A model generated the notes under the pieces. The model was not told the DNA's origin and searched no databases. It saw only the letters and a program-made list of their open reading frames with translations. 64,000 nucleotides of DNA, taken from positions 4,960,001 to 5,024,000 of the forward strand of contig NZ_CP036525.1 of the NCBI RefSeq assembly GCF_007741535.1, read 5' to 3'. Every line of letters begins with the position of its first letter. Positions within the stretch are counted from its first letter, which is position 1. The stretch comes from Rubripirellula lacrimiformis. GTDB taxonomy: Bacteria; Planctomycetota; Planctomycetia; Pirellulales; Pirellulaceae. The translations under genes and the position numbers were made by a program. Below, one piece after another: positions 16,740 to 49,227 of this stretch.

Positions 16740-17978
16740 ATGAGCAGCATTCCCGCGAAAGAGTCACACACCACGAGCTATCCGAAATTCATCGGTCGTT
16801 CGTTGTGGTTGGCCACCGAAGGTTCCTTTGCATTCTATGCCTGGATGACGATGCTGACCGCATTGTTCTTGGTCGGTGCCAATGCGTGGGCCAACCAGGT
16901 CGCCGGCGGCATGATCGGCACCAACATGACGGACCAAGTCAGTTGGGGTCTGTACATCGCCAACTTTACTTTCATGGTCGGGTTGGCGGCCGGTGGCGTG
17001 ATGATGGTGATCCCGGCGTACCTGTATCACGACCGCAAAATGCACGACGTCGTGATCATTGGCGAATTGCTTGCCATCGCCGCCATTGTCATGTGTCTGA
17101 TGTTCGTCGTCGCAGACCTGGGTCGCCCCGACCGGTTCTGGCACATGATTCCGGTCATTGGAAAGTTCAACTTCCCGATCTCCATGCTGACCTGGGACGT
17201 GATCGTCCTGAATGTATATCTGCTGTTGAATCTGCACGTCTGCGGTTACTTGCTTTACATGCGTTATCTCGGTCGCAAACCCAACCCAACTTGGTACATC
17301 CCCGTCGTGATGCTGTCGATCGTGTGGGCGATTTCGATCCACACGGTCACCGCGTTCCTGTACTGTGGACTGGGCGGGCGACCGTTCTGGAACACCGCAC
17401 TGCTGGCACCACGATTTCTAGCGTCCGCTTTCGTCTCGGGCCCCGCCTTCATCATCGTTTCGCTGATCTTGATCAAAAAACTGACTGGAATCGGCGGATT
17501 GGATGGACCGATTGCGACGTTGACTAAGATCATCCGTGTGACGATCCTGATCAACCTGTTGATGGTCGCATCGGAACTGTTCACCGAGTTCTATACCGGT
17601 GGTTCGCATGTTAGCGCGGCGAAGTATCTGTTCTTTGGCTTGCACGGCAAGACCGCGTTGGTGCCATGGACGTGGACAGCGATCGGGCTGAACGTCACCG
17701 CGGCGCTGCTATTCCTGTGGCCGGGAACACTGCGTTTCCGCTGGCGTCCATTATTGGTGGCGGCTTGCTGCATGGCGTTTGTCGGCGCCTGGATCGAAAA
17801 GGGCATGGGCCTGATCATTCCCGGCTTCGTACCAAGCACGCTGCACGAGATCGTCGAATACGTGCCTAGCCAACTGGAATGGAAAGTCACCGTCGGCATC
17901 TGGGCCTTTGGATTGATGGTGTTCACCATCGCCATCAAGACCGCATTGCCGACGCTGAAACATCCCGCCGAGCACTAA
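16740..17978 (+). CDS. NrfD/PsrC-family membrane quinol-oxidoreductase subunit
   Basis: Polytopic membrane protein of 412 aa with many hydrophobic segments throughout, typical of NrfD/PsrC/HmcC proteins. Conserved family features include FMVGLAAGG near the second segment and FVVADLGRPDRFWHM. It probably oxidises or reduces menaquinone and exchanges electrons with the Fe-S subunit encoded just upstream. In this window it replaces the missing NapC/NapH as the likely quinol input to nitrate reductase (inference). The last codons (GAG CAC TAA) are part of a 14-bp tandem repeat running into the downstream gap. Confidence 0.93.
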   Translation: MSSIPAKESHTTSYPKFIGRSLWLATEGSFAFYAWMTMLTALFLVGANAWANQVAGGMIGTNMTDQVSWGLYIANFTFMVGLAAGGVMMVIPAYLYHDRKMHDVVIIGELLAIAAIVMCLMFVVADLGRPDRFWHMIPVIGKFNFPISMLTWDVIVLNVYLLLNLHVCGYLLYMRYLGRKPNPTWYIPVVMLSIVWAISIHTVTAFLYCGLGGRPFWNTALLAPRFLASAFVSGPAFIIVSLILIKKLTGIGGLDGPIATLTKIIRVTILINLLMVASELFTEFYTGGSHVSAAKYLFFGLHGKTALVPWTWTAIGLNVTAALLFLWPGTLRFRWRPLLVAACCMAFVGAWIEKGMGLIIPGFVPSTLHEIVEYVPSQLEWKVTVGIWAFGLMVFTIAIKTALPTLKHPAEH

Positions 17979-18025
17979 ACAACGAGCACTAAACAACGAG
18001 CACTAAACAACGAGCACTAAACAAC
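17970..18025 (+). repeat. four perfect 14-bp tandem repeats overlapping a stop codon
   Basis: GAGCACTAAACAAC is repeated four times head-to-tail, beginning inside the last codons of the NrfD-like gene so that every copy carries the Glu-His-stop sequence. The copies are identical, indicating recent slippage or expansion. A fifth partial copy (GAGC) follows. Confidence 0.95.
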
Positions 18026-18032
18026 GAGCGAT

Positions 18033-24582: not shown

Positions 24583-24879
24583 ATGGACACAGTGCAAACG
24601 ATCATTCCAGGACTGACATTAAGTCCTGCAGGACAAGCGACGATTGATCCGCCCCTGCACCAGCCTCTGTTTGATCTGGCTCTCGCTCTGGAAGCTCCTA
24701 CCGGACTGCCGGTGGACATCCAACATGTAGTGGCGGCACTGGTGATGGCGCGTCAAAAGGGCGACATCGACAAGGATCTGCGGCTAACCGGCAATGACGC
24801 GATTCTTGTGACTCAGCTGGCTCCGTACGTCCAATCGCTTTTCGATCAACATGGCGGCATCTTGGGCGAAGACGAATGA
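24583..24879 (+). CDS. conserved-looking small protein, unknown (98 aa)
   Basis: ORF of 98 aa 28 bp after the hydrolase stop, without signal peptide or Cys motif. Amphipathic segments (LHQPLFDLALALEA, IQHVVAALVMARQKG, AILVTQLAPYVQSLFDQHGG) suggest a compact helical protein. Composition is protein-like and both ends are tidy, so I take it as real. I do not recognise a family. It probably belongs to the same transcript as its neighbours. Confidence 0.6.
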   Translation: MDTVQTIIPGLTLSPAGQATIDPPLHQPLFDLALALEAPTGLPVDIQHVVAALVMARQKGDIDKDLRLTGNDAILVTQLAPYVQSLFDQHGGILGEDE

Positions 24880-25004
24880 ACCTTCGTACCCGATTCCAAT
24901 TGGCCGACCACAACATGACCGACGATACCGGCGATGGACTCCATTGCCCAACACTTGCAGACAATCAAAGCTCCATTCAACCTTCCGCAAACAGACGACA
25001 CAAC

Positions 25005-25817
25005 ATGCGATACCTCCCCACTGCATTGATCCTGGTAGCCGCTTCGATTGCCTGGCTAACTTTCGACGATCCGGTCCACGCTGATGAACCGGTCCAAATA
25101 AAAGTACTGTGCTACAACATTCATCACGCCGAAGGTGTGGATTCGAAGTTGGATTTGCAACGTATCGCGAAGGTCATCCAGTCCGTCGCCCCCGACATCG
25201 TGGCTCTGCAAGAAGTTGATCGAAACGCTACTCGATCCCAATCGGTTGACCAGCCGGCAGAATTGGCACGCTTGTGCAAAATGGAAGTTGTGTTTGGTGC
25301 GAACATTCCGCTGCAGGGCGGCCACTACGGCAATGCGATTCTGTCCCGACATCCGATCATGGAACAGCGAAACCATTTGCTTCCCAATTTGGAAAATGGC
25401 GAGCAACGTGGCGTGTTGGTGGCCGAAATCCAAATGCCGTCCATTCCTCAAACGCTGGTCATGTTTGCGACCCACCTCGACCACCGACGCGCTGATCACG
25501 AGCGGGTTGCATCCGCCCAAATGATCAACGAACTAGCGACGAAGTACAAAAACCAGCCTGCGATTCTGGCCGGTGACATGAACGACGTGATCGACAGCGC
25601 CACCTTGAACACGTTGGAAAAACGATGGACGCGAACCAATCCGAAACCGTTGCCGACGATTCCTGTGACAGATCCGACCAGACAGATCGACTTTGTCCTG
25701 GTTTCAGCACAGGACCGCTGGAAGGTCGTTGATGTGACCGTGCTTTCCGAGGCCGTTGCATCGGATCACCGCCCGATCCTGGCCACACTGGAACTGTCGC
25801 CCGCCACCAACCCGTGA
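25005..25817 (+). CDS. secreted endonuclease/exonuclease/phosphatase-family hydrolase
   Basis: Protein of about 270 aa. I choose the ATG at the start of MRYLPTALILVAASIAWL because it gives a clear signal peptide. An earlier in-frame ATG at 24876 overlaps the preceding stop (ATGA) but would add 43 hydrophilic residues before the signal. EEP-fold motifs are in order: KVLCYNIHH, VALQEVDR, ATHLDHR, ILAGDMND and SDHRPI. These bind a divalent metal and cut phosphodiester or phosphomonoester bonds. The substrate is unknown; an extracytoplasmic phosphodiesterase role is plausible. Confidence 0.88.
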   Translation: MRYLPTALILVAASIAWLTFDDPVHADEPVQIKVLCYNIHHAEGVDSKLDLQRIAKVIQSVAPDIVALQEVDRNATRSQSVDQPAELARLCKMEVVFGANIPLQGGHYGNAILSRHPIMEQRNHLLPNLENGEQRGVLVAEIQMPSIPQTLVMFATHLDHRRADHERVASAQMINELATKYKNQPAILAGDMNDVIDSATLNTLEKRWTRTNPKPLPTIPVTDPTRQIDFVLVSAQDRWKVVDVTVLSEAVASDHRPILATLELSPATNP

Positions 25818-25857: not shown

Positions 25858-26930
25858 ATAGCCGCGTGGTGTCGCATGGACGCACGGTGCGATGTCATTG
25901 TCGTTTAACCGCGAGCCCAGCGGGCCGCGCGTTGCTACATATGGACGCACGGGGCGATGCCGCTGTCGTTTAACCGCGTGCCCAACGGGCCGCGCGTTGT
26001 CGCACATGGACGCACGGTGCGTCGCCGTCGTCGTTTAGCCGCGTGCCCAGCGGACCGCGCGTTGCTGCACATGGACGCGCGGGGCGTTGCCGTCGTCGTT
26101 TAACCGCGTGCCCAACGGGCCGCGCGTTGCTGCACATGGACGCGCGGGGCGTCGCCCACGCGGTGAAACGATTCGCACCCGCGGGGCGTCGCTGCTGTCG
26201 TTTAACCGCGTGCCCACCGGGCCGCGCGTTGCTACATACGGGCGCGCGAGGCGATGCCGCTGTCGTTTAACCGCGTGCCCAGCGGGCCGCGCGTTGCTGC
26301 ATATGGACGCGCGGGGCGATGCCCACGCGGTTAAACGATTCGCACCCGCGGTGCGCTGTCATTGTCGTTTAACCGCGTGCCCAGCGGGCCGCGCGTTGCT
26401 GCACATGGACGCGCGGGGCGATGCCCACGCGGTGAAACGATTGGCACCCGTGATGCGCTGTCATTGTCGTTTAGCCGCGTGCCCAACGGGCCGCGCGTTG
26501 CTACACATGGACGCGCGGGGCGATGCCCACGCGGTGAAACGATGCGCCTCGATATGCGGTCCAGTTCACACGGTCGTTTGACCGCGTGCCCATCGGGCCG
26601 CGCGTACTGGTGGGTGGACGCGCGGGGCGATGCCCACGCGGTTAAACAATTCGCATGCGTGATGCGCTGTCATTGTCGTCTAACCGCGTGCCCAACGGGC
26701 CGCGCGTTGCTGCATATGGACGCACGGGGCGATGCCCACGCGGTGAAACGATTGGCACCGGTGATGCGCTGTCATTGTCGTTTAACCGCGTGCCCAGCGG
26801 GCCGCGCGTTGCTGCACATGGACGCGCGGGGCGATGCCCACGCGGTGAAACGATTCGCACCCGCGGTGCGTCGCCGTTGTCGTTTTGGCGCGTGTTGCTG
26901 CACACCGGCTAACGGGCGACTCCATCGGGA
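25858..26930. repeat. cloverleaf-forming tandem repeat array (65/102-bp units)
   Basis: Eleven clear units start with GTTTAACCGCGT or a near variant at 25903, 25968, 26033, 26098, 26200, 26265, 26367, 26469, 26576, 26678 and 26780. A degenerate unit precedes them (from about 25858) and another follows (26882). Spacings are 65, 65, 65, 102, 65, 102, 102, 107, 102, 102 and 102 bp. A full 72-bp unit such as 26265-26336 contains outer arms GTTTAACCGCGT/ACGCGGTTAAAC enclosing three hairpins: GCCC-AGC-GGGC, GCGCGT-N12-ACGCGC and GGGC-GAT-GCCC. The linker adds a fourth, CGCACC-CGC-GGTGCG. Short units lack the 3' outer arm and linker. It lies between two convergent genes and shows no protein-coding character. 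Confidence 0.95.
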
Positions 26931-26937
26931 CGAAGCA

Positions 26938-28527
26938 TTATCGAAGCCAATCGGGAAGCGAATCGTTATCTTCCCACTCTTGGATTCGCTTGTCCAACGA
27001 ATCACCTTTCCAATGGTCGGTACCGGCGGGCAACGCACCGGATTTTGGGATCCATTTTTTGTGATCTTCGACAACCGACGCATACTTTGGGTCCGCCGCC
27101 AGATTCGTATGTTCGCCGGGATCGGTCCGATGGTCGTAAAGTTCTTCGGTATCATCCCGATACCGGATGTAACGCCAATCGTCGCTTCGAACAGCGTAGT
27201 TTCCGTAGTACCAACTACTTAGAACCGGATGCCCGCGATCAACCGTCGGATTCAACATCAACGGAACCAGACTCTTTCCATCCAGCTTGGGTGCTGCTGG
27301 CAGGCCACAAAGATCGACCAGTGTCGGATACAGATCAAGCAAACTGACCACCTGGTCGCAGGCGCCGTCCGAAGCAGAAACGCCGGGGGCTTTGATGAAT
27401 AATGGAACTCGGGTGGATTCTTCCCACAGAGCTTGTTTCCGCCAGTGATTCTTTTCGCCAAGGTGTTGACCGTGATCCGACCACAGGACGACAACGGTAT
27501 TGTCGGCGTACTTGCTGTCGGCCAAGGCATCCAGAACTTTGCCGGCCTGAGCGTCCACAAAAGACACGCAAGCCAGATAACCGTAAACCATTTCACGCCA
27601 ATAGCTGTCGCTTAGATGGACGACGGCGTAGTGATCGCCGGTTCGGATTCGGCCGTGAGCAATCGCTTTTCCCATCATCGGGATGTCAGCCATCTCGTCC
27701 GCAGGGACCTCTGGGATCTTGATCTGGTCCAGATCGTAAAGGTCAAAGTACTCCTTCGGTGCCGTGTACGGGACATGCGGTCGCACGAATCCGACGGCCA
27801 AAAAGAACGGCTTGTCGTGATCTTGGTTCAGCTGATCAACGGCCCAGTCCGCGATGTTCTCGTCAAACATTTTTCCGCCGGGGATGTCCTCGCGCTGAAG
27901 CGAACCGTAGCACAGCGAGTTTCCGTCGGCGAACTTTTTTCCGTATCGATCGATGATCTGACTGCCGTCTCTGGGGAACGGGTAAAACATTTTTCCACCG
28001 TACCCCTCCCCACGTGCCAATAACTTCTTCGGCACCTTATAGCCTGGGGCGGTCGTGTCCCAGAAGTCTGGCGTGCGCTCTTTATAGTCCGACACGCCCT
28101 GATGAAAGACCTTCCCTGCGGCCAACGTTTTGTAGCCGCTATCGCGAAAATGCTGCGGCAACATTTTGTGGTCGCCCATCACCTGATCGTACGTCTTCCG
28201 CATGGTGCTCGTCGAACTGTACCAACCCGATGTACTCGGATGCAGACCGCTCAGTACCGAGTTGCGCGACGCCGTGCACACCGCTTGCGAACAATGGGCA
28301 TTTCGAAACAGCATCCCCTGCCGAAACAGCTTGTCCATATTGGGGGTCTTCGCCTGGGCGTTGCCCCCCATGCCAGATTCCCAATCGTTCAAATCGTCGA
28401 TCGAGATAAACAGCACATTTGGCTTTGCAGCAGTCTGATTCCCGGTCGTTTCCTCTTGTGCCATGGCAACATGAAACGCAGACGACGCCAGAATCAGGAT
28501 GCTTGATACGACTACACGCAAGGTCAT
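26938..28527 (-). CDS. sulfatase, iduronate-2-sulfatase-like
   Basis: Secreted sulfatase of 529 aa with a signal peptide ending at AMAQ. Motifs are NVLFISIDDLNDW (metal site), formylglycine motif CTASR (Cys84, C-x-A-x-R form), GKVFHQG, and a C-terminal RYIRYRDDTEELYDHRTDPGEHTNLA. The SIDDLNDW and KVFHQG features are typical of the iduronate-2-sulfatase-like subgroup common in planctomycetes. It probably desulfates a marine glycan. The gene ends 8 bp from the repeat array and is divergent from a second sulfatase. Confidence 0.93.
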   Translation of the reverse strand: MTLRVVVSSILILASSAFHVAMAQEETTGNQTAAKPNVLFISIDDLNDWESGMGGNAQAKTPNMDKLFRQGMLFRNAHCSQAVCTASRNSVLSGLHPSTSGWYSSTSTMRKTYDQVMGDHKMLPQHFRDSGYKTLAAGKVFHQGVSDYKERTPDFWDTTAPGYKVPKKLLARGEGYGGKMFYPFPRDGSQIIDRYGKKFADGNSLCYGSLQREDIPGGKMFDENIADWAVDQLNQDHDKPFFLAVGFVRPHVPYTAPKEYFDLYDLDQIKIPEVPADEMADIPMMGKAIAHGRIRTGDHYAVVHLSDSYWREMVYGYLACVSFVDAQAGKVLDALADSKYADNTVVVLWSDHGQHLGEKNHWRKQALWEESTRVPLFIKAPGVSASDGACDQVVSLLDLYPTLVDLCGLPAAPKLDGKSLVPLMLNPTVDRGHPVLSSWYYGNYAVRSDDWRYIRYRDDTEELYDHRTDPGEHTNLAADPKYASVVEDHKKWIPKSGALPAGTDHWKGDSLDKRIQEWEDNDSLPDWLR

Positions 28528-48765: not shown

Positions 48766-49227
48766 CGTCCACGGCGAATCGCGTTGGTCCTGGAAGCCCA
48801 CAGCACTTCGATCGCGGTTCCAACCGAACCATCCCCACGGATCTAGCAGTCTGTGATTCGTGGCGATGGTCCGTGACGGTAATTGGGGGGTGACGAATTA
48901 TGGCGGCGAGCTGTAACAGCGAATTGTGACAGTGAATTGTGACAGCGGGGGCCACCTGATCGCATGGTCAGTATGGCGGAACCCGAGGCTCCAACCTAGT
49001 TGCATGAATCGATCCTGCTGATCACGCTAGCAGGAACGTTTAGGTTTCAATCCGCAGACATCGAATCGATTGTCAGCATCCGGTCCATCCGGCTTTTACC
49101 TCATCTCCCCTTTTTGATCCAACCGTCGCTGCGTTACGGTTTGCAGCACGCAGGTTTGCGTGTTGCGATCGACCGCTGCTACGATGGCCACCCCACTTCC
49201 CTCCTGATTTCCCCCGGATTTCACATC
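48766..49227. other. intergenic region with 13-bp tandem repeats
   Basis: 462 bp without a supported gene. AGCGAATTGTGAC/AGTGAATTGTGAC (48918-48943) form two near-perfect 13-bp repeats, preceded by a more degenerate third. They could mark an operator or be slippage. The promoter for the downstream DUF1080 gene should be in the right half. Confidence 0.5.

Follow-up and report, generated by a model that had tools for sequence, protein, structure and literature searches.

A tandem array of REP doublets in a planctomycete genome and the single-strand DNA transposase, encoded at another locus, that most probably spread them

Between the 3′ ends of two genes lies a row of closely similar repeats, and the question raised by this locus is what kind of element these repeats are and by what means they came to be there. 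The window, that is, the whole stretch of 64,000 nucleotides that was analysed, occupies positions 4960001–5024000 of the single contig of an 8.54 Mb genome (G000), which its gene content and the relatives of its RAYT (see below) place among the planctomycetes, close to Pirellula/Rhodopirellula. In window coordinates, the array with its degenerate remnants extends from 25860 to 26925 (+ strand; direct reading, TRF and script) and is bordered by an endonuclease/exonuclease/phosphatase-like gene (24876–25817, + strand) and a sulfatase gene (26938–28527, − strand), both named by eye and both with their 3′ ends towards the array. Eleven units of the GTTTAACC type start at 25903, 25968, 26033, 26098, 26200, 26265, 26367, 26469, 26576, 26678 and 26780, which corresponds to steps of 65, 65, 65, 102, 65, 102, 102, 107, 102 and 102 bp; a degenerate piece, recognized by eye, is found at either end (about 25860–25902 and 26878–26925). 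The first-pass annotation had described this layout (eleven units at 65-, 102- or 107-bp steps, degenerate ends, convergent neighbours), and reading and script returned the same positions. TRF gave periods of 65, 102, 167 and 311 bp, among others, for the array; the latter two indicate that multi-unit blocks were duplicated together. The motif GTTTAACCGCG, at no more than one mismatch, has 18 matches in the window, all 18 inside the array, while 100 shuffles yielded a mean of 1.29 and a maximum of 4, which places the array matches beyond chance. Elsewhere in the window, TRF reported a perfect 14-bp tandem repeat, CGAGCACTAAACAA (17969–18029, 4.4 copies), and a degenerate 13-bp one, CGAATTGTGACAG (48894–48947, 4.2 copies).

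Each complete unit is a 72-nt element made of two inverted REPs flanking a variable centre; each arm folds as a 7-nt tag of the GTTTAAC type followed by the hairpin CGCG-(T)-GCCC-NNN-GGGC-CGCG, and this design is that of a REP doublet (REPIN/BIME). Seven of the eleven units are such complete inverted pairs, all on the + strand: 26098–26169, 26265–26336, 26367–26438, 26469–26540, 26576–26647 (in which the central loop is replaced), 26678–26749 and 26780–26851. In the second of these, which carries the tags GTTTAAC/GTTAAAC on its two arms, the left REP occupies 26265–26294 and the inverted right REP 26307–26336. The other four units are 65 nt long, three of them adjoining (25903, 25968 and 26033, together 25903–26097, + strand), each with a left REP, a centre and a partial right REP, and the fourth at 26200–26264 (+ strand). 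The letters before the tag are TGTC, CGTC or GGTC in the window copies and ATC or CCG in other copies.

It had been proposed that full units close as a cloverleaf, that the copies differ mostly in loops and that this pattern reflects constraint on structure; these proposals held in part. The 65-nt units lack the right closing arm, so that the cloverleaf as drawn is impossible for all four of them; the seven 72-nt units can form it. Folding as single-stranded DNA puts a long imperfect hairpin lowest in energy (−28.8 kcal/mol), ahead of the cloverleaf (−27.2) and of a pair of separate REP hairpins (−17.4); a whole unit accordingly folds best as the long hairpin and not as REP hairpins, and the local 5′ hairpin is part of the best fold in only 60 of 225 units. 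Three single-strand DNA folds of two complete units gave z scores of −4.7 to −5.8. The cloverleaf is one among several folds of nearly equal energy, and as the sole fold it was rejected.

Variation was counted over a genome-wide set of 225 units, which includes one chance match of the regular expression (window 31075). The most variable positions are base 18 in the loop and base 5 in the tag, and the stem bases are mostly near-constant; the bias towards loops is therefore real, but variation affects the outer arm too, where the tags are mostly GTTTAAC, GTTTCAC or GTTTAGC. Base 26 of the right half varies as well (T in 131 and C in 92 units), yet remains able to pair with G. In G000 the left arm reads GCCC-NNN-GGGC and the right arm, on the other strand, GGGC-NNN-GCCC; the hairpin is kept in both, whereas Watson–Crick pairing across the arms is lost at positions 14, 15, 21 and 22 (present in 1, 4, 0 and 2 of the 225 units). 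Within the left halves, pair 10–25 is C-G in 187 units, T-A in 15, T-G in 6 and unpaired in 16; within the right halves, pair 11–24 is G-C in 209, T-A in 14 and unpaired in 2. The T-A double changes are confined to the loci L060 and L093, and to L063 and L068, which reduces them to about two events per pair. Such compensatory changes, taken from counts in place of a covariance model, support the hairpin within each half. The outer arms, on the other hand, are not linked: left and right tags are identical in 97 of the 225 units, and tag position 5 agrees across the arms in 126, against about 122 expected from base frequencies. The tags of the two arms thus vary independently, and an obligate cloverleaf is not supported. 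What is constrained is the hairpin inside each half, and the flip between GCCC and GGGC leaves it intact. While the paired REPs differ in G000, the element of its congener G021 is a near-perfect inverted repeat with the arm sequence GTTTAACCGCGTGGGCATCGCCCCGCGCGT; its 30-nt arms are equal within one base in 12 of 13 copies and exactly so in 4, the odd copy being an 84-nt span captured by the regular expression.

The repeats are by no means restricted to the window. The 16-mer GTTTAACCGCGTGCCC, at up to two mismatches, occurs 351 times in forward and 426 times in reverse orientation in G000, its reversed-pattern control 5 and 1 times. With a stricter pattern, exact half-sites number 522 in G000, 324 in G021, and 191 and 162 in G224 and G186, respectively, which represent another genus of the same family; three more genomes have one each and the remaining 289 of 296 have none, the reversed-pattern control being zero in all 296. 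The 86-bp unit was matched (E ≤ 0.001) in four of 40 relatives, two of these being weak single matches. Blocks of at least two half-sites, 38 in total although some are single arrays split by insertion sequences (IS), are spread over 29 G000 stretches (the window and 28 others), and 32 of the 38 contain at least five; the 29 stretches represent part of the G000 arrays, a further one near 264 kb having appeared in the search for exact half-sites. Arrays occur in both orientations and are scattered over G000; their periods, mostly 94 to 137 bp, differ from array to array, and the unit centres are 75% alike within loci and 27% between them (24 loci with at least three units). One block, at L089, contains 18 complete units.

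According to a simple ORF caller, the genes next to the 38 blocks are convergent in 21 cases, co-oriented in 14, several of which are arrays split by IS, and divergent in 3; background pairs of neighbouring ORFs in the same stretches are convergent in 41, co-oriented in 80 and divergent in 44. ORFs overlapping blocks were excluded by design, so that the orientation bias alone is informative on placement; a position where two genes converge would be in keeping with sites that are tolerated. Beside the homologues of the sulfatase gene in the congeners G011 and G001, which gave the sole long matches on the sulfatase side among 40 genomes, the array is absent; this comparison indicates lineage specificity of the array and nothing beyond, and the 40 genomes contained no empty-site partner for an insertion event.

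Two kinds of IS have entered the REPs. An IS1182-family element of 1576–1578 bp, scoring above the NF033551 cut-off, was matched 12 times in G000 (E ≤ 1e-30; loci L053, L064, L065, L067, L068, L093; L236–L247); all 12 lie within the 3-nt loop of a GCCC-NNN-GGGC REP, and 11 of them duplicate the loop triplet (3 bp). An IS4-family element of 1521 bp, with ends CTCTTTATCC..., is found at L060:1866–3386 and L090:10907–12427, the family assignment resting on the L090 copy; both copies are flanked by a 10-bp duplication, GGGCNNCGCC, which is most of the hairpin of the other REP half. Insertion specifically into REPs is described for IS1397, ISKpn1 and ISPpu9 in the accessible part of PMC1525189; unlike these, the element here is of the IS1182 family, with every copy in the loop of one REP subtype. 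The loop-specific insertions of the IS1182-family element amount to an independent probe of the REP hairpin.

The candidate enzyme is a REP-associated tyrosine transposase (RAYT). The first-pass annotation had seen no such enzyme here and had suggested a search for one elsewhere in the genome; as far as the window was examined this holds, but the genome does encode a RAYT, a protein of 204 aa whose gene (G000:C1:5222195–5222806; L066:3196–3810) lies about 235 kb from the window array, with REP blocks on both sides and, as judged by eye, apparent degenerate REPs directly before its start and after its stop. Its frame is intact and the catalytic residues are present. Pfam Y1_Tnp finds it weakly (match at 5222435, E 6.7e-4, score 21.6 and thus below the cut-off of 23), and against NF047646 it scores 46.1 bits (48.8 for L139), under the curated cut-off of 80. 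It is the sole match in G000 at E ≤ 1e-10, and such a match is present in 42 of the 296 genomes from this order. A scan of genome contigs gave 298 stretches encoding a relative; of the best 80 of these 298, 79 bear planctomycetal titles (R. baltica, R. maiorica, R. sallentina and N. pilleata among them) and one is a Vicinamibacteraceae MAG. Among 62 aligned relatives, NF047646 (REP_Tyr_transpos) matches all at E ≤ 0.001, IS200 matches 48, and Pfam Y1_Tnp 54 at E ≤ 0.01. Against the PDB, the RAYT profile finds ISDra2 TnpA (E 7e-4) and E. coli TnpArep (4er8, E 0.0099), while the single G000 sequence gave no convincing match to either. The AlphaFold model of the R. maiorica relative, which is 51% identical to the G000 protein (pLDDT 83.6), is matched by Foldseek to ISDra2 TnpA, IS200 TnpA and the E. 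coli RAYT–REP complex 4er8 at E values of 1e-5 to 9e-5, and also to IS608 TnpA; relative to 4er8, the TM score is 0.47 by query and the rmsd 3.2. The R. maiorica model, standing in for the G000 protein, thus has the HUH-Y1 fold (Foldseek to 2xma, 2f4f and 4er8).

The motif YVxxNP (Y---NP) is present in 26 of 26 rows of alignment A1 and, with YI counted, in 61 of 62 rows of A2; PxHxH is present in all 26 A1 rows and in 58 of the 62 A2 rows. A tryptophan 21 residues before the tyrosine, the spacing of W94 and Y115 in E. coli, is found in 22 of 26 A1 rows and 56 of 61 A2 rows and is mostly followed by alanine; class 2 subclasses that have typical REPs possess a WQ motif, of which the W is kept here and the Q occurs in just one of 26 A1 rows. 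YVxxNP being a class 2 signature and W-A resembling the W[TA] of class 3, the family looks intermediate between TnpA_Y1 classes 2 and 3 in its sequence motifs. Other Y1 genes of G000 (L080, L082, L084, L086) and those of G021 (L079, L081, L083, L085) are not evident partners, since no window-type half-site lies within about 1.5 kb of them.

Gene and repeat are linked well beyond G000. Flanks of 200 nt on both sides were available for 71 of the best 80 (of 298) RAYT loci, and an exact inverted repeat of at least 12 nt joins the flanks at 57 of these 71, as compared with 1 of 58 windows shifted by 1 kb and 17 of 207 pairs in which flanks were exchanged among loci; with at least 16 nt, the figures are 44 of 71, 0 of 58 and 3 of 207. 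The tag GTTTARC occurs within 300 nt on both sides at 56 of 71 RAYT loci (displaced windows: 0 of 57) and on at least one side at 58 (displaced: 1 of 71), leaving 13 of 71 where it is missing within 300 nt; counted in either orientation, there are 238 copies of it in the 42.6 kb of RAYT flank and a single one in the 38.4 kb covered by displaced windows. The suggestion of a substrate for a single-strand-specific transposase is thereby strongly supported, as an HUH-Y1 gene lies between the same repeats in G000 and most of its relatives are flanked by inverted elements of that kind.

Tag and enzyme have also descended together. Hairpin stems vary among RAYT clades while the tag is constant, and on a quick RAYT tree (34 of 79 inner branches open; 19 of 85 rows with neither tag) the tag type, AAC or AGC, changes twice over 66 labelled rows, against 17 to 27 times in 200 shuffles. 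The RAYTs of G000, of G224 and of a Fuerstiella MAG form one group (SH-aLRT 97), and in all three, stems of the CGCGTG type adjoin the RAYT gene. For another stem type, a RAYT is found in 10 of 16 genomes with at least ten copies and in 32 of the 280 others (Fisher p 5e-6; tallied by hand, with the threshold chosen after the counts were known); it was undetected in the remaining six of the 16. Two of the four genomes rich in the REP type of the window, G021 with 324 and G186 with 162 half-sites, have no RAYT of the family at E ≤ 1e-10; fragmented assembly or loss after the spread may account for REP-rich genomes of this sort. The hundreds of half-sites in G021 and G186 would accordingly be either orphan REPs or the mark of an assembly gap.

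From this linkage and joint descent, both read from sequence, we infer that the REPs of G000 are mobilized by this RAYT. The array is very probably a tandem REPIN (BIME-like) cluster of a planctomycetal REP–RAYT system, in which the REPINs were spread by the RAYT and the arrays arose by local duplication. In such a system the RAYT would bind the single-stranded REP hairpin, would read the tag 5′ of the hairpin as a guide, and would cut and rejoin single-stranded DNA, allowing REPINs to reach further intergenic positions. Single REPINs would then have grown into arrays, each with a period of its own, through a second process that acts locally and duplicates them in tandem by slippage or unequal exchange. 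Both the guide role of the tag and this mode of array growth are put forward as the probable rather than the observed part of the scheme.

The alternative that survives best, unlikely as we consider it, is that the arrays are a passive satellite, old REPINs that are now amplified by local tandem duplication alone and on which the RAYT is inactive. Period and centre sequence are indeed specific to each array, and no RAYT is detected in two of the four genomes rich in this REP type; nevertheless, the reading frame in G000 is intact with its catalytic residues, tag and RAYT lineage are still matched, and local duplication accounts for the growth of arrays but not for dispersal to dozens of sites. 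A good deal less probable is a structured RNA or a transcription terminator/attenuator, with the fold selected in the RNA. The stability of the folds and the 21 of 38 blocks that stand between convergent 3′ ends would suit it. Against it, Rfam 15 has no match (E up to 1 for the window stretch, gathering threshold for L066), arrays run in both orientations, left and right tags change without regard to each other, and the outer arms are the transposase-linked tag; the RNA role that had been suggested thus found no support, although by analogy with what is described for other REPs a secondary role at mRNA 3′ ends is possible. Least credible of all is the remaining suggestion, a recombination site, here of the integron attC type: integron integrases exceed the TIGR02249 cut-off at two G000 loci and at one locus of G021, and the GTTTAAC tag fits the R-box consensus of attC, RYYYAAC, but the search for integrases combined with a half-site scan around them led to its rejection, window-type half-sites being absent from the surroundings of both G000 integrases (19 kb in L103, 15 kb in L105) and numbering one in the 9 kb around that of G021 (L104), while the arrays are scattered over the genome in both orientations with periods near 100 bp, in which a gene cassette would not fit, and the tag is linked to another enzyme, the RAYT. 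The integrase matches themselves are located at G000:C1:2970738–2971676 (L103), G000:C1:192198–193013 (L105) and G021:C57:74713–75660 (L104); in addition, the same integrase-like fragment, with 138.6 bits each, is present at G000:C1:195435, 1921020 and 4313612, which suggests a repeated mobile element.

The REP–RAYT reading has to be seen against the systems already described. Of the sources cited here, PMC8266576 is Corneloup et al. (2021) and PMC2817692 Nunvar et al. (2010). The elements here resemble the REPINs and BIMEs of E. coli and Pseudomonas, which are inverted REP pairs with a variable linker, mostly intergenic and in hundreds of copies, as far as the accessible text of PMC3116915 and PMC8266576 goes. 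BIMEs are often tandem (PMC8266576), and for P. fluorescens SBW25 the accessible accounts give 16 ordered REPIN clusters, the largest of four REPINs (PMC3116915, PMC8266576). Unlike these, G000 has a block of 18 complete units and at least five half-sites in 32 of 38 blocks, and its tag is GTTTAAC instead of GTAG/GTGG. Most REPs have been sorted into the GTAG and CGTC superfamilies, in a treatment (Di Nocera et al. 2013, PMC3733652) that mentions Planctomycetes and also describes, under the name “TIRYT”, RAYTs with inverted repeats of other kinds at their flanks. The GTAG or GTGG which, in the accessible part of that paper, stands 5′ of the hairpin in the former superfamily is replaced here mostly by GTTTAAC, GTTTCAC or GTTTAGC; the latter, described there with a CGTC end and no dedicated transposase known, differs from the present REPs, which have TGTC/CGTC/GGTC, ATC or CCG and a linked transposase.

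On the side of the enzyme, the likeness to RAYT/TnpA_REP of class 2 (Quentin et al. 2018, PMC6006769) comprises the HUH-Y1 core, Y---NP, the low copy number and the position of the gene between inverted REPs. Unlike class 2 as presented in the accessible text, the family is mostly planctomycetal, stays below curated cut-offs and has the tag GTTTARC, and the W is mostly followed by A (Q in 1 of 26 rows), whereas the subclasses described there have WQ or W[YH]. Class 3, reported from Planctomycetes, Acidobacteria and Proteobacteria in the same source, is similar in being planctomycetal, in the atypical many-copy hairpins that flank the gene and in W[TA], which is seen in many rows; it differs by YV[VI][AENY]EQ (Y----Q) and the foot CnGA, as opposed to YVxxNP and GTTTARC here. 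Planctomycetes are not mentioned in the accessible part of PMC2817692, and the openly readable literature that was searched, supplements aside, yielded no report of GTTTARC-tagged REPs or of a RAYT branch of this kind. The REP/RAYT kind is thus known; the novelty lies in the tag, in the branch to which the enzyme belongs and in the scale that the arrays reach.

A wider reading, for and against which the scales seem to us evenly balanced, is that planctomycetes hold a RAYT branch of their own between TnpA_Y1 classes 2 and 3, which would read the 7-nt GTTTARC instead of the 4-nt GTAG, with guide and enzyme having changed together (the AAC and AGC branches); the REPs would form a third tagged superfamily beside GTAG and CGTC, and the REPINs of this lineage would have been amplified into dozens of satellite-like arrays. 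In the accessible text of PMC8266576, TnpA_REP cuts single-stranded REPs and the GTAG tag matters for cutting, the choice of tag and cut site having been tested in a few proteobacterial examples. Among bacterial transposases, those of REP–RAYT systems are unusual in that they seem domesticated and are maintained at low copy number together with a dispersed repeat family; a planctomycetal branch in which a different tag and its enzyme change in step would be a natural experiment on the guide code.
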